64,000 bases of DNA from positions 15,570,001 to 15,634,000 of the forward strand of contig NC_058339.1 in assembly GCF_905475395.1 (NCBI RefSeq). Reading direction: 5' to 3'. Below are positions 9,192-62,868 of this stretch, in pieces. Within the stretch, counting starts at the first letter, position 1. The number at the start of each line of letters is the position of its first letter. The translations under genes and the position numbers were made by a program. The notes below the pieces were generated by a model that had not been told where the DNA came from, did not search any database, and saw only the letters and a program-made list of their open reading frames with translations. Source of the stretch: Chrysoperla carnea (lineage: Eukaryota > Arthropoda > Insecta > Neuroptera > Chrysopidae).

Positions 9192-10010
9192 TACATTCTT
9201 GAAACCTATTTATGCTAGGTAAATTTTGACCACAAATTTGAAAAGTATGACGCAAATTTAGAAGGAATGCATACTTAGTTTTTCAAAATTGGATAAAATT
9301 TGGATGTGATAGAGCAAAATTAATTTTTTTGAATTCTAATGACGTCATAAAATTAAAAAATTCGATTTTTTTGATAACACAGGCAAATTTGATTCGATCT
9401 TATTGAAATTTTTTGTGAAACCCACTAATTTTGGGCCATTCTTTTCAGTTGTGATGCCAATTTTTCGCTAGCTATCACTTTTATGACTAATTCTAGGACC
9501 AAGACTCTACATTCTTGAAACCTATTAGAGCTAGGTTAATTTTGATCACAAATTTGAAAAATATGACCCCAATTTAGTGGGACTGCATACTTGGTTTATC
9601 AAAATTGGATAAAATTTGGATGTGATAAAGCAAAATTTAATTTTTTGGATTCTGATGACGTCATAAAGTTAAAAAATTCGATTTTTTTGATAACACGGGC
9701 AAATTTGATCCGATCTTAATAGAATTTTTTTTAAAACGCACTAATTTTGGGTCAAACTTTTCAGTTCTGATATCAATTTTTCGCTAGTTATCACTTTTAT
9801 GCTTTATTCCGGGACCAGTACTCTACATTCTTTAAACCTATTAGAGCTTGATTAATATTGATCACAAATTTAAAATGTATAACCAAAATTTAGTAGGATT
9901 ACATACTTGGATTATCAAATTGGATTAAATTTGGATGTGATAGAGCAAAATTAAATTTTTCGGATTACGTCATAATGACTGATGGCGTCATAAAGTTAAA
10001 AAAATTTAAC
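9192..10010 (+). repeat. Satellite-like tandem repeat S1, about 2.6 units of 316-327 bp
   Basis: The phrase GACGTCATAA recurs at 9341 and 9657 and, mutated to GGCGTCATAA, at 9984, giving periods of 316 and 327 bp. Each unit also carries 'ACATTCTTGAAACCTATT', 'TTTGATCACAAATTTGAAAA', 'GGATAAAATTTGGATGTGAT' and 'TTTTTCGCTAG'. Other copies are at 37215-37560 and, reversed, at 47420-48060. No open frame runs through the unit. Confidence 0.85.
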
Positions 10011-16372: not shown

Positions 16373-16430
16373 TATATCTTATAATTTCCCTAAGGACTAC
16401 GTTTAACATTAAATTAAATTAAATTAAAGA

Positions 16431-16702
16431 GAGCCTAAATGGCCGAGTGGTCTAAAGCGCTAATTTTAGAACGTTTGGACTATTTAGACTTAGGTCGAAT
16501 CCAGGCAGCGACAGTGTGAACGATTTATAAATAATGGGAGTGCAGAATTTATCACAGTGTCGTCGCTTGGATAAGAACGAAGTAACCGATTCCACCCACA
16601 CCAAAAATGTATTTATAAATATGTTTGTAATGGAATATAGATTAATAAATAATGATGTGGGTGGCATCTGTGATAAGGCATGCGTCACAAAAACAGAGGT
16701 TA
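16431..16702 (+). repeat. tRNA-derived SINE family A, 5' part, interrupted by the palindromic element
   Basis: The head GAGCCTAAATGGCCGAGTGG...TTAGGTCGAATCCAGGCA is a serine/leucine-type tRNA relic with boxes A and B. The body (CAGTGTGAACGATTTATAAA, GGGAGTGCAGAATTTATCAC) and tail (GATGTGGGTGGCATCTGTGA ... CACAAAAACAGAGGTTA) match the reversed copy at 61829-62090. The copy stops at 16702, exactly at the border of the palindrome; its last bases resume at 23017. Confidence 0.85.
16697..16702 (+). repeat. Left 6-bp target-site duplication AGGTTA
   Basis: AGGTTA lies directly before the element's first bases AGTAGATAAGC and recurs directly after its last bases GCTTATCTACT at 23017-23022. Six-base duplications are the rule for Polinton/Maverick integrases. 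Confidence 0.85.
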
Positions 16703-19700
16703 AGTAGATAAGCTATACCAGTCCGGGCTCACTTTGGGTCATTTTTACATGTTATTTCTTATGGGAAATTCTAAGGTTCATTTTGCACTTTTTTGTTCCT
16801 TTTTATGTAATGTTGGTTGCCTAACCTTAACGCATACTTATTATTAATGTATGTATATTGTATTCAATTACAACTCATCTGAATCACACTTGTTAACACA
16901 CTTACATCATACTCTTTACTTACCATTATTTGTAATTTAGCATACGTAGCGTACGTTGGTATAATTGTCAACATAACTTCTTCATGTATTATCAACGAAT
17001 ATTATTAATATTATATGGATTGCTTAAAAAAATTTTACTTATTACTATGAGATTTGAACGCGGGCCCTCATGAGTGGAAGTCTACTATGCTAACCACTCC
17101 ACCACAAGACCTTGTTACAACATAGACAAAAAATGTTAATAACTTAAAAACGTTTTTACAAAAATAAGTTAAAATATTATATTCATGAAGGTCAACAACT
17201 GTATTAATTAATATTCAAATATATTATTTATACATAGTTTTCAATATAATCTTTTTGAATGTAATTTGATATTTAATTGTTTGTTACGTATATATTTAAA
17301 CATTTTAGTAGAAATCATTAATTTGATTCCCATTTCTTAACTTTTTCTCACATCCAAATGTATGTATGTATTATATATTTTTTATTTAAAGGAATATGAT
17401 TAATTTTTCCAATAATAAAAGTTGTGAATTATTATTATTTAACATTCACAACTATAAATGCAACTTATATAGGCTAATTCAAAGGTACCTCACCTACTAA
17501 CTTGGCATGACTGCATTTAATATACAGTTTTATATAATACTTATCGAATGTAACAGATACCAATAATACAGATAACAACAATTATGCAGCATTTTACAAG
17601 CGAGACCATCTGAACATAATTAATTTATAAAACTAATTGTGTATTATACAAACATCATAAAGATCATTACCAAATGTAATTAAAAGCATTTTTTCTCCAG
17701 AAACTTACCTGCAATAACATCTACATAAAAAATTAGAAGCTCATCTGTAATAATGTTTAGATACAAATTTGTATCAAGGGAATATTATTTAAAGTGTTTT
17801 GTAAAAAGAAACTCAATTATATTATTTAGATTTTTATTTTATTAGTAAACAATATTGATATACAGTATAATAATATTAATATATACTAAATTATAAATAG
17901 ATAGCTAATTTACAAGGTAATAATAATTCAATGGTTAAAGAAAACTAATACATTTTTAATTTATTGGTAAACAATTGATATACAATACAATAATATTAAT
18001 ACTAAATTATAAATAGATAATTAATTTATAAGATAACAATTCTATTGCTAAAAGAAAACTCTAATTAATTTGTTTAATTATATGTAAATAATTTAATATA
18101 TAAGTTTCTGCAAGTCCTATGACAAATTTTAAAACATACGATTTTTTTTTATAAATGAGCATATATTCAATTTGTTTTAGAGGTTATAAAAATTAATTTT
18201 ACGTTACACACACACACACAATCACACCTCAATGAGATGACATTTTAAAAATCAACAAAAAAACATTTTAACATAATATTAAATAGGTAATAATTAATTA
18301 ATTAATTAAAGTTTACACTGATTTTTTAATAATATTGAGATTATTGAGATAACTTATGAATTCAAGAATTTCACTATAAATGATATTAGTATTCAATGAA
18401 TAAGTGATATTGTCATGCTCACGAATTAACTATACATTTTTTCTTTTTGATACAAGATTCATCTATATATTCAGCTTTTCGTTTATAGGTTGTAGTATTC
18501 AAAGAATAGTGACCCCAGGGTAGTGTATCATAGGAACCAGGTATAATATATCGCTTATCATCATAAGGGCTTAGAGCAATTTTTGTCTGAGTTTGGGTGT
18601 AAAGCTTAAGTTTATCAGATTTTATGAGGTTTTGATCAACTGATATCTCTTTAAATTCCTCCAAACATTCAACATAATCTTCAAATGTTATTTTCGTACT
18701 AAGAACTGACCTTTTAACTCCCTTAGCTTTTTTTGTTAACCCAAGATTATTTGATTCTTGTTTAACATTCCCATGATTAAATATAGCATCATCAAGCGAT
18801 TTTGTTTGTTTTTCTAGAGGGGTTGCTATTTTTAATGTATATAATTTTGATCGTAATCCTACAAAATGAGTCATAGGAGTTCCATTGTTTTCATCCTTCA
18901 TCATACCAAGCACTTTCTTATTAACGCAAGGTATATTATAAACATTAGAAGGATGGTAATCACTGGTATCAAAATACTTGTGACAATCTCTTTTTATCAT
19001 TTCATAAGGATCATGGTTTTTAATTTCGTAAATAACCGAGTCAGTATCTGTATAGATAGCGGTAGAATCATCACCCAGCTGTGGAATCATATAGCCATAA
19101 TGAAAATCATAAATTGTAGTTTTAGCTAAATCTAAGATTGCCATACCAATATACAAAGGCTTATTGAAGAATATCTCCATCTTTTTCAACTCAATGGCCA
19201 CCAAGTTTGAATTGAAAATTGTACAAGAATGAAATTGGGGTTTAGATATATAAGCTTCTGCCCCATATCGACCCTCCCATTTTGTAACAAGCTTTACATT
19301 AGAATGTTTCCTAATATTTTCCATTGTTTTTCCAAAGACAGCATTGTTCATTAATTTATACAAATTTTTCTCAAAATCATTATTAGCATTCTTTCGTAGT
19401 TTGGTATTTAAATCAATATATGATTGAAGCCAAGGCGACTGTTTAAATTTTAAAACTTTATGAATTTTTTCTAATTTTAGCCCATTGTTTAATGCCTGCT
19501 TCAATGTTCTATAATGAATTACATATCGCTCTTTATCATGAAGAGTACCCATCAATTTACTCTGTTTAGAATTAGGTGCCGATCTATGTTCAGGGCAAAA
19601 AGGTAAATCCTTATGTTTATCATGAAGTTCTTCAGGATATTTGAGATCAACTTCTAAGAAATATCCATTATCGGCATCATCCGAAATCATTGAAACATCA

Positions 19701-19840
19701 ATATTTGTATCACACCACTCAAAACCACTGTAAGGAAGACACTGACTCATCGCCCATCCATATTGATTGTTAATGTCTAAATAAAGTAAATGCACTTCAG
19801 ACTTGGATGGATCAAATCCTGAAACGTATTTATTATTCGC
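16703..19840 (+). repeat. Left arm of the 6.3-kb palindrome
   Basis: Coordinates mirror those of the right arm with a constant sum of 39717 inside the CA run and 39719 outside it. At every place compared (the ends, 16741-16800, 17700-17730, 18181-18240, the whole ORF) the sequence is the reverse complement of the right arm except for the two differences given above. 16703-18418 is non-coding. Confidence 0.9.
17036..17110 (-). other. tRNA-like sequence in the left arm
   Basis: On the minus strand it reads GGTCTTGTGGTGGAGTGGTT then AGCATAGTAGAC...GCGTTCAAATCTC, so box A-like and box B-like blocks are present at tRNA spacing. The T stem (CCGCG against CTCAT) and acceptor stem do not pair, so I call it a relic and not a working tRNA. 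The same sequence lies in the right arm. Confidence 0.5.
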
Positions 19841-19870
19841 TGTGGAACGTCGTTTCATACATTGACTCAA
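18419..19870 (-). CDS. Truncated Polinton-type protein-primed DNA polymerase B (left copy)
   Basis: Palm and thumb part of a family B DNA polymerase of the viral/organellar, protein-primed type; such enzymes copy linear element DNA from a terminal protein. The open frame starts with a TTG codon at 19870; the first ATG is at 19858, inside the loop (MKRRSTANNK). An in-frame TGA lies just upstream, so this is the whole frame: 483 codons from TTG, 479 from ATG. Counting from the TTG, motif A is YLDINNQYGWAM (D32), motif B is KLMNNAVFG (172-180) and motif C is YTDTDS (273-278), all with the catalytic residues. The 3'-5' exonuclease and terminal-protein regions that normally precede motif A are missing; full Polinton polymerases exceed 1,000 aa. 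From TANNK onward it is identical to the right copy. Confidence 0.85.
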   Translation of the reverse strand: MSQCMKRRSTANNKYVSGFDPSKSEVHLLYLDINNQYGWAMSQCLPYSGFEWCDTNIDVSMISDDADNGYFLEVDLKYPEELHDKHKDLPFCPEHRSAPNSKQSKLMGTLHDKERYVIHYRTLKQALNNGLKLEKIHKVLKFKQSPWLQSYIDLNTKLRKNANNDFEKNLYKLMNNAVFGKTMENIRKHSNVKLVTKWEGRYGAEAYISKPQFHSCTIFNSNLVAIELKKMEIFFNKPLYIGMAILDLAKTTIYDFHYGYMIPQLGDDSTAIYTDTDSVIYEIKNHDPYEMIKRDCHKYFDTSDYHPSNVYNIPCVNKKVLGMMKDENNGTPMTHFVGLRSKLYTLKIATPLEKQTKSLDDAIFNHGNVKQESNNLGLTKKAKGVKRSVLSTKITFEDYVECLEEFKEISVDQNLIKSDKLKLYTQTQTKIALSPYDDKRYIIPGSYDTLPWGHYSLNTTTYKRKAEYIDESCIKKKKCIVNS

Positions 19871-19876
19871 ACCACC
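19841..19876. other. 36-bp loop between the palindrome arms
   Basis: The only asymmetric part of the element. It begins TGTGGAACG and ends CAAACCACC, with a 4-bp GTGG/CCAC match at its edges. It holds the only in-frame ATG near the 5' end of the left polymerase frame (19858) and the TTG-initiated starts of both frames, which overlap head to head by 9 bp (19862-19870). Confidence 0.85.
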
Positions 19877-21298
19877 GCGAATAATAAATACGTTTCAGGA
19901 TTTGATCCATCCAAGTCTGAAGTGCATTTACTTTATTTAGACATTAACAATCAATATGGATGGGCGATGAGTCAGTGTCTTCCTTACAGTGGTTTTGAGT
20001 GGTGTGATACAAATATTGATGTTTCAATGATTTCGGATGATGCCGATAATGGATATTTCTTAGAAGTTGATCTCAAATATCCTGAAGAACTTCATGATAA
20101 ACATAAGGATTTACCTTTTTGCCCTGAACATAGATCGGCACCTAATTCTAAACAGAGTAAATTGATGGGTACTCTTCATGATAAAGAGCGATATGTAATT
20201 CATTATAGAACATTGAAGCAGGCATTAAACAATGGGCTAAAATTAGAAAAAATTCATAAAGTTTTAAAATTTAAACAGTCGCCTTGGCTTCAATCATATA
20301 TTGATTTAAATACCAAACTACGAAAGAATGCTAATAATGATTTTGAGAAAAATTTGTATAAATTAATGAACAATGCTGTCTTTGGAAAAACAATGGAAAA
20401 TATTAGGAAACATTCTAATGTAAAGCTTGTTACAAAATGGGAGGGTCGATATGGGGCAGAAGCTTATATATCTAAACCCCAATTTCATTCTTGTACAATT
20501 TTCAATTCAAACTTGGTGGCCATTGAGTTGAAAAAGATGGAGATATTCTTCAATAAGCCTTTGTATATTGGTATGGCAATCTTAGATTTAGCTAAAACTA
20601 CAATTTATGATTTTCATTATGGCTATATGATTCCACAGCTGGGTGATGATTCTACCGCTATCTATACAGATACTGACTCGGTTATTTACGAAATTAAAAA
20701 CCATGATCCTTATGAAATGATAAAAAGAGATTGTCACAAGTATTTTGATACCAGTGATTACCATCCTTCTAATGTTTATAATATACCTTGCGTTAATAAG
20801 AAAGTGCTTGGTATGATGAAGGATGAAAACAATGGAACTCCTATGACTCATTTTGTAGGATTACGATCAAAATTATATACATTAAAAATAGCAACCCCTC
20901 TAGAAAAACAAACAAAATCGCTTGATGATGCTATATTTAATCATGGGAATGTTAAACAAGAATCAAATAATCTTGGGTTAACAAAAAAAGCTAAGGGAGT
21001 TAAAAGGTCAGTTCTTAGTACGAAAATAACATTTGAAGATTATGTTGAATGTTTGGAGGAATTTAAAGAGATATCAGTTGATCAAAACCTCATAAAATCT
21101 GATAAACTTAAGCTTTACACCCAAACTCAGACAAAAATTGCTCTAAGCCCTTATGATGATAAGCGATATATTATACCTGGTTCCTATGATACACTACCCT
21201 GGGGTCACTATTCTTTGAATACTACAACCTATAAACGAAAAGCTGAATATATAGATGAATCTTGTATCAAAAAGAAAAAATGTATAGTTAATTCGTGA
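19862..21298 (+). CDS. Truncated Polinton-type protein-primed DNA polymerase B (right copy)
   Basis: Mirror copy of the left polymerase fragment. The open frame starts with TTG at 19862 (478 codons) and lacks the loop ATG of the left copy; its first methionine codon is in the AMSQC stretch after motif A, so a product made from ATG would lose the motif A aspartate unless transcription or splicing supplies an upstream start. Motifs A, B and C are unbroken, with no frameshift or stop. The identical protein in both arms means either recent origin or homogenisation; selection alone would not keep synonymous sites the same. Confidence 0.85.
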   Translation: MTQTTANNKYVSGFDPSKSEVHLLYLDINNQYGWAMSQCLPYSGFEWCDTNIDVSMISDDADNGYFLEVDLKYPEELHDKHKDLPFCPEHRSAPNSKQSKLMGTLHDKERYVIHYRTLKQALNNGLKLEKIHKVLKFKQSPWLQSYIDLNTKLRKNANNDFEKNLYKLMNNAVFGKTMENIRKHSNVKLVTKWEGRYGAEAYISKPQFHSCTIFNSNLVAIELKKMEIFFNKPLYIGMAILDLAKTTIYDFHYGYMIPQLGDDSTAIYTDTDSVIYEIKNHDPYEMIKRDCHKYFDTSDYHPSNVYNIPCVNKKVLGMMKDENNGTPMTHFVGLRSKLYTLKIATPLEKQTKSLDDAIFNHGNVKQESNNLGLTKKAKGVKRSVLSTKITFEDYVECLEEFKEISVDQNLIKSDKLKLYTQTQTKIALSPYDDKRYIIPGSYDTLPWGHYSLNTTTYKRKAEYIDESCIKKKKCIVNS

Positions 21299-23016
21299 GC
21301 ATGACAATATCACTTATTCATTGAATACTAATATCATTTATAGTGAAATTCTTGAATTCATAAGTTATCTCAATAATCTCAATATTATTAAAAAATCAGT
21401 GTAAACTTTAATTAATTAATTAATTATTACCTATTTAATATTATGTTAAAATGTTTTTTTGTTGATTTTTAAAATGTCATCTCATTGAGGTGTGATTGTG
21501 TGTGTGTGTGTGTAACGTAAAATTAATTTTTATAACCTCTAAAACAAATTGAATATATGCTCATTTATAAAAAAAAATCGTATGTTTTAAAATTTGTCAT
21601 AGGACTTGCAGAAACTTATATATTAAATTATTTACATATAATTAAACAAATTAATTAGAGTTTTCTTTTAGCAATAGAATTGTTATCTTATAAATTAATT
21701 ATCTATTTATAATTTAGTATTAATATTATTGTATTGTATATCAATTGTTTACCAATAAATTAAAAATGTATTAGTTTTCTTTAACCATTGAATTATTATT
21801 ACCTTGTAAATTAGCTATCTATTTATAATTTAGTATATATTAATATTATTATACTGTATATCAATATTGTTTACTAATAAAATAAAAATCTAAATAATAT
21901 AATTGAGTTTCTTTTTACAAAACACTTTAAATAATATTCCCTTGATACAAATTTGTATCTAAACATTATTACAGATGAGCTTCTAATTTTTTATGTAGAT
22001 GTTATTGCCGGTAAGTTTCTGGAGAAAAAATGCTTTTAATTACATTTGGTAATGATCTTTATGATGTTTGTATAATACACAATTAGTTTTATAAATTAAT
22101 TATGTTCAGATGGTCTCGCTTGTAAAATGCTGCATAATTGTTGTTATCTGTATTATTGGTATCTGTTACATTCGATAAGTATTATATAAAACTGTATATT
22201 AAATGCAGTCATGCCAAGTTAGTAGGTGAGGTACCTTTGAATTAGCCTATATAAGTTGCATTTATAGTTGTGAATGTTAAATAATAATAATTCACAACTT
22301 TTATTATTGGAAAAATTAATCATATTCCTTTAAATAAAAAATATATAATACATACATACATTTGGATGTGAGAAAAAGTTAAGAAATGGGAATCAAATTA
22401 ATGATTTCTACTAAAATGTTTAAATATATACGTAACAAACAATTAAATATCAAATTACATTCAAAAAGATTATATTGAAAACTATGTATAAATAATATAT
22501 TTGAATATTAATTAATACAGTTGTTGACCTTCATGAATATAATATTTTAACTTATTTTTGTAAAAACGTTTTTAAGTTATTAACATTTTTTGTCTATGTT
22601 GTAACAAGGTCTTGTGGTGGAGTGGTTAGCATAGTAGACTTCCACTCATGAGGGCCCGCGTTCAAATCTCATAGTAATAAGTAAAATTTTTTTAAGCAAT
22701 CCATATAATATTAATAATATTCGTTGATAATACATGAAGAAGTTATGTTGACAATTATACCAACGTACGCTACGTATGCTAAATTACAAATAATGGTAAG
22801 TAAAGAGTATGATGTAAGTGTGTTAACAAGTGTGATTCAGATGAGTTGTAATTGAATACAATATACATACATTAATAATAAGTATGCGTTAAGGTTAGGC
22901 AACCAACATTACATAAAAAGGAACAAAAAAGTGCAAAATGAACCTTAGAATTTCCCATAAGAAATAACATGTAAAAATGACCCAAAGTGAGCCCGGACTG
23001 GTATAGCTTATCTACT
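19877..23016 (-). repeat. Right arm of the 6.3-kb palindrome
   Basis: Reverse complement of 16703-19840, ending GCTTATCTACT at 23016. Its 21299-23016 part is non-coding and AT-rich. It carries C22009 where the left arm implies A, and a GT run two bases longer (21498-21513). Confidence 0.9.
22609..22683 (+). other. tRNA-like sequence in the right arm
   Basis: Mirror of 17036-17110: GGTCTTGTGGTGGAGTGGTT ... GCGTTCAAATCTC. Box A and B blocks are recognisable; the stems are not intact. Confidence 0.5.
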
Positions 23017-23050
23017 AGGTTAAATCCCCATTATTATTATTATTAAATTA
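23017..23050 (+). repeat. Right 6-bp duplication and displaced 3' end of SINE A
   Basis: AGGTTA (23017-23022) repeats the left duplication. It is followed by AATCCCCATTATTATTATTA, which continues the SINE tail. The reversed copy in RpL10 intron 2 has the uninterrupted equivalent CGGGGGTTAAACCCACAATC. Removing the element and one duplication restores one continuous SINE. Confidence 0.8.
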
Positions 23051-23443: not shown

Positions 23444-26356
23444 TCACTTCTTCTTTTCATGCTCTTCAGCAATTTTCGCCATAATAATTGCGTCTTCATC
23501 ATCCTCACTAAGCATTTCATCTTTATCGTCATACAAATGAAATGTTTCGGCTTCTAAAGCTAATTTTCGTATATTTTTTAAGCAACCAGCAGCAGCTTCT
23601 TGTAAAACTTCATCCTTTGCTGACACCGCTTTTAGTAAATATGGAACAACACCACTTTCATGCATCGTGATACAATTAAAAGCATTTTTCGATAAAGAAA
23701 ACAACGCTTGCGCGGTAGTTCGATGTATGGATGGAACATCATCAATCATATACGAAACTAATGATGGGATAGCACCACGACGACCGTATTCTTTACAATT
23801 ACCACCCCAACTACAACTATTCGCGATAACTGCACCTAATTGCTGTCGTAGATTTTTATCTTTTGTATCAACTAATTGGCATAATTTTTTCACAACACCA
23901 TGATCACTGATTACAGCTAAATTTTCTAAATCCTTTGCAATTACTGATAATGCTGCGCATACGGCTGCTAATACACCGGTATCTTCTGATGATAGTAAAC
24001 TAACAGTTAATTGTAAGCCTCCAACAAAACTTCGGCACATTTCACCGGATTCTTTAGCATGTTCAATACATGGACATAGTGCCCATGCTGCATTCTCTTG
24101 TACTCTTGGATCACTATTTTTTAGTAATGACCAAACTAATCGAACACCATCCAATTCTTCTATTTTATCCATACATTTAGAATCTCTTGCACATTGCATA
24201 ATTACTAATGGAACATTTCGTAAAAGTGGCACGTATGTCTCATTTAATAAGTTGACAACTAATTTAATACCACCAGTTGTAACCATTACAGCATGGTTAC
24301 TTGAATCTTTTAATAACTCTGATAAAGCTCCCGTAGTATTGGTTAAAACCTCCTCGTTGGTATCCTCTAAATGGCGCACAAGTGCGCTGACAGTTTGAAG
24401 TTGATTAAAACGTTCAATATTCTTGTGATATTTAGCACACATCCATACTGCCCCAGTTGTTCCAGCTAAAAGTTTTTTATTTTCAAATAAACTTTCTTCG
24501 GAAAGTATTTTAACTAATGGATCTAATCCTCCTGCAATTCGAATCAAATCTCGAGCTTTATCAGTGACTGCACACTTAAATATAGTTGTTGCACCGTTTG
24601 TTTGTAGTTTTTCATCGCCTTCCAGACTTTTTACAATATCGGGAATCATTCCTTCGGTAATAATACCTAAACTATAATGTGGTATACTTGCACTATTTGC
24701 GAGTACTGCCAGAGCTGGAGTTGTTACTCGTTCATGGATTGAATGAATACAACGTGCTAAAAGTGGAATTACTCCATATGAAGCCATAACATTACAGTTA
24801 TTACGCGAAGCTGATAAAGAACATAAAGCTTCAGCTCCCGCCATTGCTAGATTTATTGAATCTAATGCTTGATCATTCAATTCCTCTATATTGGTTGCTA
24901 AAATTTCTGGACTCACATCCAACAAATCAATAACTTTCGCTATACCATGATATTTTCGAACAATTTTTCTAGCTTTTCGTCGTAAACATACCATTGCCAA
25001 GCATTGTGCAGCTTTCATTTGTAAATCTTTTGCTGGATCATCTAGTAAAGCTACCAATATTGGTGTAATTCCTAAATTTATAATATTTATACGTATTTCT
25101 ATGTTTTCTGAAATGGTTTTCAAAACGTCCAAAGCACATAATTTTATTTTTAATTCTTTTGTCTCCAACACGTTTACAAGTACTTCTAAACCGCCATTAT
25201 CACGTATGGCCATTTGATTTCCTTCCAATGTTAAATCAAAATCTTGTATGCAACACAAACCAACTAATGTGGCTGTTTGATTTCCCGTTTTCATGTATCT
25301 TATTAATTTTTGTATTATCCATAAATCTGTCGTACTTGATTCACTCTGTAAATATATAAATAATTTTTAACAGTTATCAGTGAAAGTCCCAATCCGAATT
25401 TATCGAGCAAGCAAAAAAAGGAGTTGTATTGTGCAGGAGAATTTTGGGATGGAAAGTTTGACAGTTTGGGCTGGAAAGTTTTGAAATCTGTATCCTATCA
25501 TTAAACTAACCTGATTTTTACACTTTTTGGATCAAAATTACCCCTTCCACCGAGTTTCATCAAATTCCGAAACAAAAAATTTTTTTCCCGATTTTCTCGA
25601 TTTTTACAAAGGGGTTACCCCTTAAAAAAAATGCAAAAAATCGAAAAAAAATTTTCATCTCCAATTTGGATAAAGCTCTGTATATATGGTAATTTTGACC
25701 CAAAAAGTACAAAAATCGGGTCCATTTGTTGACTGGTTGAATAGTTTTTGAGATACGGACGAAAATCAATCCAATTTTACCGATATCTCAGAAACTCTGC
25801 ATCCAATCATTAAAATAACCTGATTTTTATAATTTTTGGGTCAAAATTACCCTATTTTCCGAGTTTCATCAAATTCCAAAAAAAAAGTTTTTTTTCCGAT
25901 TTTCTCGATTTTTACAAAGGGGTACACCAATTTACAAGGGGTACCCTTAAAAAAATTGCAAAAAATCGAAGAATTTTTTTATCTCCAATTTCGATAAAAC
26001 TCAGTATATAAGGTAATTTTTACTCAAAAAGTACAAAAATCGGCAGCATTTGATGACTGGTCGAATAGTTTTTAAGACACAGACTAAAATCGATCCAAAC
26101 ATTTCTCGAGAAATTCTGATCTAGAATTCTCGTTCCTCGAGAAATAATAATGGTCGAGAAACTAGAAATCCTATAGCTAAAATTGATTTTCTAGAAATTA
26201 AAATAATTTTACCTTTTTAGCATCCAGCCACGCTTCACCGTCTTCTTCTGATGTGGGAGGCCCACTTGAATCTGAATCACTAGGATCCAATTCCCGAACG
26301 TACACCACCTTTTGACTGCATTGTTGAGGGTCCTCTTCCCCATTTCGTGCACTCAT
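23444..26356 (-). CDS. ARMC4: Armadillo repeat-containing protein 4 (ODAD2; Drosophila gudu)
   Basis: Two coding exons. Exon 1 (26356-26213) starts ATG, encodes MSARNGEEDPQQCSQKVVYV... and 48 residues, and ends in phase 0 before gtaaaa. Exon 2 (25345-23444) follows the acceptor tttacag and carries the rest; total 681 aa, close to the fly gudu protein. Nearly all of it is tandem armadillo repeats, and the C-terminal blocks 'NLAVISDHGVVKKLCQLVD', 'RRGAIPSLVSYMIDD', 'RTTAQALFSLS', 'NCITMHESGVVPYLL' and 'LQEAAAGCLKNIRKLALEAE' are diagnostic of ARMC4. The family helps attach outer dynein arms to cilia and sperm axonemes; fly gudu is needed for male fertility. The gene lies within intron 1 of the SEC14-like gene on the opposite strand. 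Its intron (25346-26212) contains satellite S2. The acidic tail DEDAIIMAKIAEEHEKKK ends the protein. Confidence 0.9.
25480..26130 (+). repeat. Satellite-like tandem repeat S2, about two units of 309 bp
   Basis: CTGATTTTTA recurs at 25511 and 25820 (period 309). Both units contain 'GAGTTTCATCAAATTCC', 'CCGATTTTCTCGATTTTTAC', 'TATCTCCAATTT' and 'AAAAAGTACAAAAATCGG'. The array fills most of the ARMC4 intron. Another stretch of the family is at 34730-35135. Confidence 0.85.
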
Positions 26357-34729: not shown

Positions 34730-35135
34730 ATAGGTCCAATCATTAAATTAACCTGATTTTTATATTTTTTTGGATCAAAATTTAAAAAAAATGTCCACCG
34801 AGTTTCATCAAATACCAAAACAAAAATTTGTTTCCCGATTTTCTCGATTTTAACAAACCCCTTAAAAAATTGCAAAAAATCTAAAAATTTTTCTTATCTC
34901 CAATTTTCATAAAACTCAGTATATAAGGTAATTTTGACCCAAAAAGTACAAAAATCTGGTGCATTTGATGACTGGTTGAATAGTTTTTGAGATAAGGACC
35001 AAAATCGATCCAAATATTGTGATATCTCAGAAACTCCGCATCCAACCATTAAAATAACCTGATTTTTATACTTTTTGGGTCAAAATTACCCTATTTACCG
35101 AGTTTCATCAAATTTCAAAACAAAAAGTTTGTTCC
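34730..35135 (+). repeat. Satellite-like repeat S2, about 1.3 units
   Basis: CTGATTTTTA recurs at 34753 and 35059 (period 306). Sequence blocks are those of the array in the ARMC4 intron, including 'GAGTTTCATCAAAT' and 'ACTCAGTATATAAGGTAATT'. Confidence 0.8.
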
Positions 35136-35651
35136 CTGCATAATATATGAAAATATTGATAAATCGGATTGGACTAAAAAAAATTACGAAAAACTTGCTC
35201 CTAACTTATGGAACATCTAAAGTGAAGTACAAACTAAAGTAGTACACTTACTAATAGAAAAATTGTCTGATGGCGGTCGAACTAAAACAGATTGGCCAAT
35301 ATTTATCAGTTATCATAAAAAACATTATCATTGTTCATTTTATTCGCTAAAAAGTTTTTACACAAATTCTATAAATAAATTTCTATTTATCATTACACTT
35401 TCTAAATATATTTAAATATAAAGATGTTATTTGTTTACTAGATACCCACTCAAATGTCTTTTTCTTTATTTTGCACACAAAAAAAAAACACTTTTGCAAC
35501 ATAGAAAAATAAATCCTAACTACTTTGTTGTATTGTGAAAGTGTATGTCTTCTGGTCAAAAGGTTTGAACTAAAAATCAAGAGCCTTAATTAGTTTTCTA
35601 TGTTACATATTTCTCATATATATCTGGTTGATTTTTTGTCTTGCCTTTTCA

Positions 35652-36200: not shown

Positions 36201-37214
36201 TTTTTGAGTTTAATTTATAAGAATCAAAAAGTCTTAACATTTACGAAGAAATATTATTTAGACTCAAAGTTCTTTTTTTTCATTCATGGAACATTTTTTC
36301 ATGGAATCACCCATATTTTAAAATGATTTTCATATAAAATTAAAAATAGACGATGGAGGAATTAGCTTTCATCAAAAATTGAAAGTCTAGTAATAAATAC
36401 ATTTCGAAAATCACTAATGACGTCAATCAATCAGTATGGCAGTCATAATCAGGCTTGGAGTGATAAAGGAGTGGACTGTTTATTGGCATGGCAAAATGAT
36501 TTCCCCTGCAATAAAAAAATTTGGTGCTCGCATTCAGAATATGACAATCCGCCCGACTATTGCCCTAAAGTTGAATTATTACACATCTGAAGCATCATTC
36601 GCAACAAGATTTGAATAATTTTATATGATTCGAACCGTATGTAAAACAGTCTCGCAAATACTTGATATTATTTTTTTAATGAATGTTTATTTTGCTATGT
36701 AATGAGAATCATTTTCTATTAATTAACTATTTTCCAAGAGAACACAAGATAAAGATAAAAGTAATATTGTATACGGTTTATTAAAAAAGATATTTTCTTA
36801 TAACGTAGTTTTTTTTACTTCGTATATTATTGCATTTTTAATTAGAAAAATATTGATAGTTCAACTAAAATAAGAAGAAATATTCAGTAAAGCCAAGAAT
36901 AAATAATAATTCAATGTTTTTCTTCTGCATCTTTTATTATATTTGCTTTTTTAATAGGAGAGAATTGATCTTAAGAGATACAATCTAAAAAAGGAACATC
37001 AAATTATTTCAGATGTGATGAATTAGGAAAGTGCATTCCTATTATGTAAATAATTATTTATAATAAGATTTTATTGATATCGAGGGTCTCAAGCCAGCAG
37101 GTTCGTAACTAGGGCGTGGCAAAGGAGGCACCTGCCACCTGCGCAAAACAAAACGTATGTCTTATACGCAAAACAAAAAGTTAGTAAAGAATCATGTAAA
37201 AGGCGCTCATTAAT

Positions 37215-37560
37215 TTACATAACACAAGCAAATTTGATCCGATTTTATTGGAATTTTTTTTAAAACCCACTAATTTTGAGTCATTTTTATCAGCTGTGAT
37301 GTCTGTTTTTCGCTAGCTATCATTTATGTGCTTAATGCCGGGTCCAGGACTCCACATTCTTAAAATCAATTTTCGCTAGGTTAATTTTGATCACAAATTC
37401 GAAAAGTATGAATCCAAAGTAGTAGGATTACATACTTGGTTGATCAAAATTGGATAAAATATGAATGTGATAGAGCAAAATTAAATTTTTTGGATTCTGA
37501 TGACGTCATAAAGTTAAAAAATTTGATAACACAGGCAAATTTGATACGATCTTATTGGAA
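37215..37560 (+). repeat. Satellite-like repeat S1, about one unit
   Basis: AACACAAGCAAATTTGATCC..., TTTTTCGCTAGCTATCATTT, GGATAAAATATGAATGTGAT and GATGACGTCATAAAGTTAAA match the array at 9192-10010. It ends about 190 bp before SEC14-like exon 2. Confidence 0.8.
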
Positions 37561-37746
37561 TTGTTAAATAATTTTTTTAACAATGAAATCAAAGAATTAC
37601 TTCGTGACTTTCTACTATCTACACTTTTTTACACCTAAAAAATCCTGAATTGTACCTGAAATAATCCTAATATCAAATGTGTAACATTAAGTGTTTATGT
37701 GATATATCGGCCATCATGTATACTAATATTTTCTTTTCTTTTTCAG

Positions 37747-47419: not shown

Positions 47420-48060
47420 GGGTACATTAATTTTGGTCATATTTTTCAAATTTGTGATCAAAATTTATCTAGCTCTATTAAATTTCAAGAATGTGCAGTC
47501 CTGGTCCCGGAATGAAGCACATAAGAGATAGTAAAGAGATAGCGAGCGAAAAACTGCCTATGTTATCCAAAAAAATAATTTTTTTACTTTATGACGTCAT
47601 CAGAATAAAAAAATTAAATTTTGCTCTATCACATCCAAATTTTATCCAATTTTTATAAACCAAGTATGTAATCCTACTTAATTTGGGTCGTACTTTTCTA
47701 ATTTGTGATCAAAATTAACTTAGCTCTAACAGGTTTCAAGAATGTGGAGACCTAGTCCCGGAATGAAGCACAAAAGTGATAGCTAGCGAAAAACTGACAA
47801 CACAGTTGAAAAGAATGACCCAAAATTAGTGGATATCAAAAAAATTCCAACAACATCGGATTAAATTTGCCTGTGTTATCAAAAAAAATAGAATTTTTTA
47901 ACTTATTGACGTCATCAGAATCCAGAAAATTTAAGTTTGCTCTATCACATCCAAATTTTATCCAATTTTGAGAAACTAAGTATGTAATCCTACTTAATTT
48001 GGGTCATACTTTTCCAATTTGTGATCCAAATTAACCAAGCTGTAATAGGTAGAGTCCTGT
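47420..48060 (-). repeat. Satellite-like repeat S1, reversed, about two units
   Basis: Reversed blocks TTTGTGATCAAAATTTATCT, CACATCCAAATTTTATCCAA (twice), ATGACGTCATCAGAAT and TTGACGTCATCAGAATC, with GCTAGCGAAAA between. It lies upstream of TXNDC17, between it and the YIPF3 3' end. Confidence 0.8.
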
Positions 48061-49726: not shown

Positions 49727-51843
49727 TTATGCTTTAATTGAATCTAATGAACACATGTGACGATACTTTTGTAATAATTCTTGTTTTAAACGTAGTTGAG
49801 TTTTTAATGCTTCCAATCTTTGTAATTGTTGTTCACGGCTAAATTCAATACCAGGCAAACGTCGTATCTATAAAATATTTAGAATAGGTAATTAATTTTA
49901 ATATTTTTAAAATAAAAACCATGGTAACATGGTTTTGGTAAATTTCGTATGCTTAGGAATATAATCCACAGACTATATAGTCTAAGATCCCAATTAGGAT
50001 CGACCTTCACCCATCTGTTTACCGGATGAAAGTTACTTTTTATGAAATATAAAATGTTAACAAATATCCCTGCAATGGGTTGCCTAAAAAAATGTGGTCC
50101 AGACTACTTTTAGTGAAAATATCAAGAGTAAAATTTTTAGAAATTTTTCACTGACTTGCATATCTTACGAATTTTGATCTACTCGAAAGTAAAAGCCATA
50201 AAGAATATGCAGCAGCTATGTTGTCTGCCTTTTTTCGTTCACTATTATCGCATTTATACAAGTTGAAAATAGTAATTACGTGCATCTGTTAATTCATTGA
50301 CTCGCATATCTAAATAAAGATAATTTTGTTACAATTACGGTGGCATATGATTGGCCACAAAATATTGGTCAAAAATAATGTTTACAAGCTTTCCAAGTTT
50401 TGATATTTATATTAAAAATGGTCTGGACCATATTTTTAAAGGCAACCCGTTACAGGAATATTTGTTAATATTTTACATTTCATAAAAAATAACTTTCATT
50501 CGGTAAACAGATGGGTGAAGGTCGACCCTAATTCGGATCTTGTACTAATAGTTTTTAATTTAAAACAGATCTGCAACTCCCTGTAAAAATTTTACTATTT
50601 TGGTTCTCTAAAGGTGTCTTTCTCCAGGTACTTCCTCTACACGTTATATTCGTGTAGGGCCATCTATTAGTTTTGATAATAATTTATCCATTTCAATGGT
50701 TGTTGGGGAAACAATATTTTATATATTTTTAAATAAATAAACAATACGTCTTTCAAAATTCGTTTGCTTGTCATTAAAATTCGTTAAATTTCTTTGTGTG
50801 TATTCTCAATTGATTGTCTTAATTAACATTTTGTGGATTATTTGAATAGTGACATTATTTAAGTATTTTGGCCGTTTTCATTGTGCCCTGTTCATTAACT
50901 AATTAGTGTAATTTAGTCGTTTTAGATGTGTTTATATTATTTTCCGATTTTTTTATGGCTGAGTTTACTATATAAACTACCGGACTTGTTTCTTTCAGAT
51001 TGTATTTAACGCAGTCGGGTTTTTGATTTTTTAATTATTTATATTATTTAGAAAATGCTTTTTAGATGTATGCGTAAAAGTAGTTCTAAGCAGTGTTGGT
51101 AAAGTTTTATTAATATATTCTTTTTAAAGTTTAATTTCGCAAGTATCCAATTTTCTTCTTTGTCTGTGTACAAATTGGTTAAGAATCTCGAAACAGAATC
51201 CGTAAAAGGGCATTATTTATATAAAAACTCGGAATAATATGTAGATTGTGCTGGTTTACGTCTAAATTAAACTAAATTTATAACTAGGTGAACAAGAAAA
51301 ATGGTCAAGTAAATGATAAAACTCTTGCACAAACAGGCTTCGATACAGAGAAAGATTTCGAAAAAATATATTTATTTTCATTTTATTTCTATAGATGCTT
51401 TTAAAAATAACAATACAAAGAACAAATATCAATTAATTTTGAAAATTTTTAAAAGAAAGAAAGGAAAGTTTTATTATTTTGAAAGATCGATTAACACAAT
51501 TCTTAAGACTATATAACTAAAAAAACACTGGTAATTTACCTGTGCTCTCGCTTGATCAAGTTTCTTTTGCAATTCTAATACTTTTTGTGAACAATCTTGC
51601 GATTCCCGTGCTTTTGCTGCGTTATCGTGAGGATCTCTTTCTACACTACAATAATTACGAAATAGGTTATCCAAAAATATATCAAATATACGTCATTTCA
51701 ACTATAGACAATAAACTCAAAATATTTTATAAATACCTGCGAATGATTTCGTAAATAACGGGCAATATTTCAAAATCTAATTCTTCAATATTTATTTGGG
51801 TAGTGTTTCTATTATTGAGCTCATTGGATTCGGAAACCTCCAT
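49727..51843 (-). CDS. MED9: Mediator complex subunit 9
   Basis: Three exons: 51843-51737, 51645-51540 and 49867-49727 (TAA), giving 117 aa. MEVSESNELNNRNTTQIN is a variable head; 'EELDFEILPVIYEIIRSVER' and 'KVLELQKKLDQARAQIRRLP-GIEFSREQQLQRLEALKTQL' followed by 'RLKQELLQKYRHMC' match the MED9 C-terminal coiled-coil domain (human 'LPLVHNII', 'MPGIHLSPEQQ', 'NELLQKYKSLC'). The family is part of the Mediator middle module, which links transcription activators to RNA polymerase II in the nucleus. Intron 2 (49868-51539) contains a large fold-back element. The start is head to head with MGRN1, about 860 bp away. Confidence 0.92.
49972..50551. mobile_element. Fold-back element with about 140-bp arms in MED9 intron 2
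   Basis: The left arm AAGATCCCAATTAGGATCGA, CCTTCACCCATCTGTTTACC ... GGGTTGCCTAAAAAAATGTG, GTCCAGAC is mirrored at 50405-50551 (GTCTGGACCATATTTTTAAA, GGCAACCC ... CAGATGGGTGAAGGTCGACC). About 280 bp lie between the arms, without a coding frame. Confidence 0.8.
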
Positions 51844-61166: not shown

Positions 61167-62868
61167 ATGGGTCGACGTCCAGCAAGATGGTAAGTACCTG
61201 TTCTTTTATGTTTTTACATATTTCTATTTTATTTCAATTGCAATTAAAGTTTTTTCAAATTAAATTTTAATATAATTTTCAAATTAAATTTTAACATGAT
61301 TAAAAATTGTTTTGTTGTAAAATTAGTGATTCAAGTGTTAAAATAATCGCTGGATAACATGTGACTTTTCGTAATATTGTGCAATAACCGTATTTTCTCT
61401 TTTAGTTACAGATACTGTAAAAACAAACCATACCCTAAATCACGGTTTTGTCGGGGTGTACCAGATCCAAAAATTCGTATTTTCGATTTGGGTAAAAAGA
61501 AAGCAGCCGTAGATGATTTCCCACTATGTGTACATTTAGTGTCAGATGAATATGAACAACTTAGTTCAGAAGCTTTAGAAGCTGGTCGTATTTGCTGTAA
61601 TAAATACCTTGTCAAAAATTGTGGTAAAGATCAATTCCACATTCGTATGAGATTACATCCTTTCCATGTTATTCGAATTAACAAGATGTTGTCCTGTGCC
61701 GGAGCTGATAGGTAAGTTCGAAATTATTATTATAAATTTTTGTTTAATGAATTAATGGTAATGTTTAATGAATTGCATCTTTTAAAATGAAAGTATAAGT
61801 AGTTTTATCCAAGAAAATCAATCAATAATGATTGTGGGTTTAACCCCCGTTTTTGTGACATAAGTCTTATCACAGAGGCCATCCACATCAATATTTGTTA
61901 AGTTAATCTTTACTTATTCAATTTTAAACATATTTTTACAATTACAAGCGACGACAATGTGATCAATTCTGCACTCCCATTAATTATAAATTGTTCACAC
62001 TGCCGTTGCCTGGATTCGAACCCGCAACCTAAGGCTAAATAGTCCAACGTTCTAAGACAAACGCCTTAGACCGCTCGGCTATTTAGGCTCTAATCAATCA
62101 ATCAAAATTTCTTGAGTTTTAATAACGTAGAAAACTTCCCAATAAATATTCACCAAAAAAGTGATAAATTGATTTGTGATAGGTAACAGAAAGGTACAAT
62201 TGATGAAAACTGATACACTAGTTTAGAGGAAACGTTCGAAATTTCGTATAAAGAAACTAACGTATAAATAATCTTTAAATCCTTAATGCCTTCGTTATCT
62301 CTACTCATACAATTTATTGTAAATTGGCTCGAAAATATTATCGATAAGTTTTTGATTTATTAGAAACTAATTGTTAGATATATAAGGGCGAAAATAATTA
62401 AAAATTCTAGATAAGTTGTTTAAATCACATAATTATTAAATTATCATTTGTTATTAGGCTCCAAACTGGAATGAGAGGAGCTTTTGGAAAACCACAAGGA
62501 ACAGTAGCTCGTGTAAACATTGGTCAACCAATCATGAGTGTACGTTCAAGTGAACGTTACAAGGCCGCTGTTATTGAAGCTTTACGTCGTGCCAAATTCA
62601 AGTTCCCAGGTCGTCAAAAGGTAATTTTCTTCAATTATGAATACTTACATTAAAAAGTTTAGTATGTAAACATTATTTACGTTTTTTCTTTTTGTTATAG
62701 ATCTATGTATCCAAAAAATGGGGCTTCACAAAATACGACCGTGATGAATATGAACAATTGAAAGCTGATGGACGTTTAGCTCAAGATGGATGCAATGTCC
62801 AATATCGTCCAGAACATGGTCCATTAGATAAATGGAAGAAAGTGCAGGAAGAAATTGCTGCCTTATAG
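61167..62868 (+). CDS. RpL10: 60S ribosomal protein L10 (uL16)
   Basis: Four exons: 61167-61189, 61406-61711, 62458-62620 and 62701-62868 (TAG), 219 aa, as long as other animal L10 proteins. It reads [37 protein letters not shown], '[40 protein letters not shown]', then '[14 protein letters not shown]'. uL16 joins the large subunit last, in the cytoplasm, and shapes the peptidyl-transferase and tRNA sites. The first coding exon holds only 23 nt. Intron 2 (61712-62457) contains a SINE. Less AT-rich codons than the surroundings fit high expression. Confidence 0.97.
61829..62090 (-). repeat. tRNA-derived SINE family A, intact copy in RpL10 intron 2
   Basis: Read on the minus strand: GAGCCTAAATAGCCGAGCGG (box A) ... 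GGTTGCGGGTTCGAATCCAG (box B), then CAACGGCAGTGTGAACAATT, GGGAGTGCAGAATTGATCAC, 'GATGTGGATGGCCTCTGTGA' and the tail CACAAAAACGGGGGTTAAAC-CCACAATC. The head has the long variable arm of a Leu/Ser tRNA. It serves as the uninterrupted reference for the copy split by the palindromic element. Confidence 0.9.

Follow-up and report, generated by a model that had tools for sequence, protein, structure and literature searches.

A palindromic Polinton derivative in the genome of Chrysoperla carnea, a candidate product of snap-back replication

Architecture and insertion site of the palindrome

The window analysed here is a 64,000-nt stretch of the Chrysoperla carnea genome (contig NC_058339.1, forward-strand positions 15,570,001 to 15,634,000), and all positions given below are those of the window. 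Positions 16703-23016 form one near-perfect palindrome of 6,314 bp that has the ends of a Polinton/Maverick element and carries, in each half, part of a protein-primed DNA polymerase (PolB). The preliminary description of this DNA, which reported a 6.3-kb palindrome with two almost identical arms around a 36-bp loop, is confirmed: the arms measure 3,138 and 3,140 nt, and the loop occupies 19841-19876. The palindrome interrupts a short interspersed nuclear element (SINE), and the arms differ by one single-nucleotide polymorphism (SNP) and one microsatellite step. The features of the element and its insertion site are as follows.

16697..16702, no strand: left copy of the target-site duplication AGGTTA, directly outside the left end
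16703..19840, plus strand: left arm of the palindrome, 3,138 nt
16703..16713, plus strand: element terminus AGTAGATAAGC, with an AGT start as in many Maverick ends (PMC8097293, in excerpt)
17710, plus strand, with partner 22009: sole SNP between the arms, T versus C on the plus strand (G in left-arm orientation)
18206..18220, plus strand: CA microsatellite, 2 nt shorter in the left arm; right-arm partner at 21499-21511
19841..19876, no strand: palindrome loop, 36 nt, unique, with native PolB code on the minus strand only
19877..23016, minus strand: right arm, 3,140 nt, repeating the left arm in inverted orientation
23017..23022, no strand: right copy of the target-site duplication AGGTTA, directly outside the right end
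16430..16702, plus strand: SINE with a tRNA-like head, broken by insertion of the palindrome (named as a SINE by eye)
23023..23038, plus strand: remainder of the broken SINE, running into its ATT-rich tail
61824..62091, minus strand: second SINE copy without an insertion, used for the empty-site comparison

The SNP and a 2-nt CA step are the only mismatches between the arms. Because the arms disagree at these two places, the second arm is not merely a copied string. The repeat finder reported a gap of 26 nt, as it extends through a mismatch; the perfect arms stop at 19840 and 19877, and the loop size of 36 bp is therefore correct. The window is free of N, and when the left arm plus loop was compared with it (blastn, E up to 1e-3), the two arms were the only matches. 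If there has been no conversion between the arms, one SNP in ~3.1 kb would correspond to an age of ~5 x 10^4 generations, taking a mutation rate from general knowledge; a greater age would be masked by such conversion.

Both flanks carry a perfect 6-bp target-site duplication (AGGTTA), as is typical of Polinton/Maverick insertions, and the chance agreement of 6-mers between random pairs of window positions was 0.089% (500,000 draws). The element runs from AGTAGATAAGC to GCTTATCTACT, such that the same AGTAGATAAGC sequence forms inverted terminal repeats of the AG/AGT type at both ends. According to the excerpted account of intact vertebrate Mavericks in PMC8097293, these have 6-bp duplications, ends that commonly start with AGT, and a length of 12.7-24.6 kb; their terminal motif (AGT)2 is matched only in part by the AGTAGA found here. 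When the flanks were joined without the element and one six-base copy was kept, they aligned to the SINE copy at 62091-61824 on the minus strand with 73% identity over 298 columns, including 39 gaps. This alignment continues for 16 nt beyond the junction, where the uninterrupted SINE copy has a single site, GGGTTA. Therefore, the element entered the SINE near its tail and six bases were duplicated, and the duplication together with the empty site indicates that a unit with Polinton-type ends was inserted. The possibility that the assembler had juxtaposed two unrelated fragments was rejected, since the SINE copy shows that the flanks belong together.

Polymerase fragments and gene content

The only long coding sequences of the element are two mirror-image copies of the end of a PolB gene, which overlap across the centre of the palindrome.

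18419..19882, minus strand: C-terminal part of PolB on the native strand, including the loop; stop codon at 18419, native homology ending at 19882
19835..21298, plus strand: PolB C-terminal part, second copy, which does not resemble PolB where it reads across the loop

The preliminary description held that both arms carry the same PolB fragment. The same frame, 491 codons from stop to stop, is indeed found in both, and the description is narrowed in that the fragment comprises the C-terminal polymerase part alone. Two polymerases of C. carnea, which came from a protein search using an alignment with a longer second row, serve as points of reference; both are encoded on a 38.6-Mb contig that carries LOC123302932 and LOC123302552. 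P0242 (1,276 aa) is identical to the fragment at 429 of 482 aligned residues (89%), and P0247 (1,115 aa) at 384 of 391 (98%), with differing final residues. Within the window, both proteins matched the element only (tblastn, E up to 1). The first 794 of the 1,276 residues of P0242 have no counterpart in the fragment, and a complete PolB was thus rejected. The assignment to protein-primed PolB is based on fold and sequence relatives and applies to the polymerase part only; the Pfam family DNA_pol_B_2 scored in 6 of 26 alignment rows, while the fragment itself was left unscored by Pfam-A. Searches of the viral contig set with PolB and with its alignment returned 3 and 31 pattern stretches, respectively, and a search of the genome contig set with the alignment returned 58, none of them a relative; the 30-nt element terminus had no match in either set.

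Two further observations concern the polymerase family. Three of the 26 scanned alignment members also match Endonuclease_7, and a nuclease-like stretch, recognized by eye, precedes the polymerase part in the alignment and is absent from the window fragment. Additionally, P0252, a polymerase that belongs to the same insect family (65% identity), is filed under Rickettsia endosymbiont of Ceutorhynchus assimilis and is possibly host DNA.

Besides PolB, open reading frames (ORFs) of at least 80 aa inside the element are limited to two antisense frames of 90 aa, and an 86-aa frame belonging to the left flank extends 10 bases into the element. The palindrome resembles animal Polinton/Maverick elements, including adintoviruses, in its protein-primed PolB, 6-bp duplication, AGT terminus and identical inverted ends. 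In contrast to them, it is 6.3 kb rather than the 12.7-24.6 kb of vertebrate elements (PMC8097293, in excerpt), its PolB is truncated and present twice in mirror image, and it shows no integrase, capsid, packaging ATPase or protease frame among the ORFs of this size. With 6,314 bp and PolB fragments only, it is therefore a Polinton derivative and not a complete Polinton. Since no integrase, capsid or complete polymerase frame was seen and the first Met codons lie inside the fragments, autonomous action is not expected.

The turn point and the origin of the palindrome

If the two arms derive from a single strand that folded back on itself, then the loop is expected to continue the native sequence of one arm only, and the turn is expected at a short inverted repeat. 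The features of the centre that bear on this are listed here.

19835..19840, plus strand: ATTCGC, left half of the turn-point inverted repeat
19842..19845, plus strand: GTGG, part of the native loop sequence, paired in register with CCAC at 19872-19875
19872..19875, plus strand: CCAC, partner of GTGG
19877..19882, plus strand: GCGAAT, right half of the repeat at the turn, read as the codons for I-R on the minus strand

Native homology stops exactly at the turn of the palindrome. On the minus strand, identity to P0242 and P0247 begins at an I residue at 19882, and the VFI ahead of that residue comes from the reverse-complemented sequence of the far side. Native polymerase is therefore encoded by the loop on the minus strand, whereas reading from the other arm yields RCGTSFHTLTQT, a sequence unlike polymerase. 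Among relatives, G-I precedes RGG in 157 of the 178 in which the pattern located the site (214 were listed and 36 were missed by the pattern). The sequence ATTCGC at the I and R codons has its reverse complement 36 nt further on, in the GCGAAT of the A and N codons, and GTGG and CCAC can pair within the loop, in register and after one mismatch. These four pairs lie in unduplicated sequence and are therefore no product of the palindrome. Thus, one genome end is present as two inverted arms around a loop of unique sequence that is native in one strand, and the junction is asymmetric: on a single strand, native PolB continues across the loop up to a turn at a short, imperfect inverted repeat. Both the asymmetric junction and the turn at such a repeat are what snap-back priming predicts.

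We consider it probable that the palindrome is a snap-back product of protein-primed Polinton replication which was then inserted in trans. A strand initiated at the PolB-side end would have run for ~3.18 kb and halted with GCGAAT as its 3' end, which could then have paired with the ATTCGC 36 nt behind it, aided by GTGG and CCAC in the loop. The folded strand would have primed itself, with synthesis proceeding back to its own 5' end, and one round of replication through the resulting hairpin would have yielded a duplex whose two termini are identical. An integrase provided in trans by a complete copy would then have inserted this duplex with a 6-bp duplication. Having neither the integrase end nor capsid genes, and only the rear part of PolB, the product should not move by itself. 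A snap-back error followed by integration had been put forward in the preliminary description, and is consistent with the Polinton-type ends, the 6-bp duplication, the empty SINE site, the protein-primed PolB fold and the asymmetric junction. The accompanying proposal of palindromic Polintons as a new class is unproven and would rest on one known copy.

Several observations weigh against this interpretation. What is seen is the inserted product, and a fold-back that preceded insertion is inferred; one palindromic copy is known, and neither parent DNA nor a free form was among the sequences seen. No RVE-type integrase gene was seen among the ORFs of the element, and the PolB fragment yielded no polymerase match in a Pfam-A search, even at E 10, or in a PDB sequence search. 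Folds of the 48-nt turn are only slightly better than those of shuffled sequences (z values of -1.70 and -1.85); among 200 shuffles, 11 and 9, respectively, fold as well or better. At least four of five end pairs were also found in 3.3% of 57,649 window 36-mers outside the element and in 1.6% of 100,000 shuffled loops. Similarly, 6-nt inverted repeats with a spacing of 10-100 nt start at 74 of 1,416 positions on the PolB strand of the arm, and there are therefore many potential turn points by chance. In addition, the yeast paper on fold-back events of the type known as origin-dependent inverted-repeat amplification (ODIRA) gives repeats of 7 bp in its excerpted text, versus 6 perfect pairs here (PMC4689423). 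As evidence for fold-back priming, the turn point is accordingly moderate, and the inverted repeat taken alone is weak.

Other routes to the same sequence were considered. A complete Polinton may have been inserted first, and its far half later replaced within the chromosome by an inverted PolB half, through fold-back at the same inverted repeat and a switch back via the homologous right terminal inverted repeat (TIR). This would yield the same duplication, ends and loop, and chromosomal fold-back at short interrupted inverted repeats has been described (PMC4689423, in excerpt), but it requires a second switch inside the right TIR and the loss of most of the element, and the far half has left no remnant among element ORFs of at least 80 aa; we regard it as unlikely, if the foremost of the alternatives. 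Slightly less credence is given to head-to-head end joining at GCGAAT, before or after insertion, of two copies or sister molecules that were both broken in PolB. The 6-nt repeat at the turn could equally have acted as joining homology. However, two breaks 36 nt apart are required, and over ~3.1 kb the arms are separated by a single SNP and a single repeat step, against 7 differences in 391 residues for the closest other copy found.

The sequence would also be identical if a parent Polinton already had 3.1-kb TIRs that included the end of PolB and these were brought together by an internal deletion, and the junction alone is compatible with this. Yet such a parent appears improbable: in the excerpted data of PMC8097293, the TIRs of intact vertebrate Mavericks measure 46-1,447 bp (mean 402), such that the 3.1-kb arm is more than twice the longest of these vertebrate repeats, and those of three dinoflagellate elements measure 232-858 bp (PMC12721341, in excerpt). 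An assembly artefact, in which the second arm stems from a mirrored or chimeric read, is the least probable explanation and a very improbable one. Long-read libraries are known to fail by producing long perfect palindromes, but a read mirrored in this way should have a mirrored flank as well, and the flanks here differ, align jointly to the SINE copy that lacks an insertion, and bear an exact duplication. Thus, the uninterrupted SINE copy, the duplication and the two places at which the arms disagree all argue against an artefact.

Two minor features of the palindrome were noted apart from its origin. Four Rfam matches over the centre (19746-19932) were rejected, as all were below gathering scores, and were taken as products of the palindrome. 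Each arm also contains a tRNA-like stretch (17048-17112 and 22607-22671) with A-box- and B-box-like words recognized by eye, which predates the duplication; neither ARAGORN nor Rfam reported these stretches.

Related systems, implications and other features of the window

Adenovirus forms symmetric snap-back genomes, which occur as free defective genomes in infected cells. These share with the lacewing palindrome protein priming and a single genome end that is doubled about a short centre; in contrast, the palindrome is a chromosomal insertion with a target-site duplication. Similarly, Kikuchi et al. are said to have described in 1985 a hairpin linear plasmid of yeast derived from a protein-primed killer plasmid. 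That system would likewise be a protein-primed linear replicon giving a perfect hairpin derivative, although the plasmid is reportedly free and without integration. In adeno-associated virus (AAV), snap-back genomes of one moiety are a major category of defective particles (PMC8235507, in excerpt), and there, as here, one moiety of a linear genome is doubled, with asymmetric forms having unpaired loops. Unlike the Polinton derivative, AAV is a single-stranded parvovirus that is not protein-primed, and its products are packaged, whereas the lacewing palindrome is chromosomal. ODIRA and tandem inverted duplications resemble the palindrome in turning at a short inverted repeat with a spacer of <70 nt, but, as presented in the excerpts of PMC4689423, are events of host chromosomal replication that are not tied to the ends of mobile elements. 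No palindromic Polinton was found in the titles and abstract openings of the literature among the matches listed.

Animal Polintons are thought to replicate via protein priming, on evidence that is mostly gene content. If the snap-back origin is correct, then the palindrome preserves in a chromosome the trace of a replication accident of a kind seen in small DNA viruses, and an inserted molecule of this kind documents a linear intermediate primed at its end. Such an insertion would further imply that a molecule in which one end is present twice is an acceptable substrate for the integration machinery, and that Polinton-type elements can leave defective genomes in the germ line. Other copies with the same 36-nt loop would mean that one defective genome has spread, whereas copies elsewhere with loops of their own would mean repeated accidents.

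A transcript across the centre of the palindrome is predicted to form a long hairpin, and in Drosophila hairpin loci supply the small interfering RNA pathway (PMC10317233, in excerpt). A much more speculative scenario, which we regard as doubtful, is that Polintons, like other linear DNA replicons, shed snap-back defective interfering genomes that use the replication and integrase proteins of a complete Polinton to enter the germ line. Centre-crossing transcripts would then be 3-kb hairpin RNAs nearly identical to the parent polymerase gene, such that a replication error would plant an RNA interference locus directed against the Polinton.

To the right of the element, a gene at 23447-25366 on the minus strand matches the C. 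carnea armadillo-repeat protein gudu with 100% identity across 99% of its length, and the next-best protein match is 56% identical. Several other repeats occur in the window. Sequences at 9192-9929, 37214-37652 and 47427-48050 belong to one family with direct and inverted repeats, many of them spaced 316 nt apart. Another family, at 25484-26103 and 34798-35157, has local inverted pairs and is perhaps a small fold-back element; an inverted pair at 25602-25937 has 154-nt arms that are 71% complementary. Finally, the region at 49978-50547 contains an inverted pair with 148-nt arms, 87% complementary and 274 nt apart, and is a possible miniature inverted-repeat transposable element.

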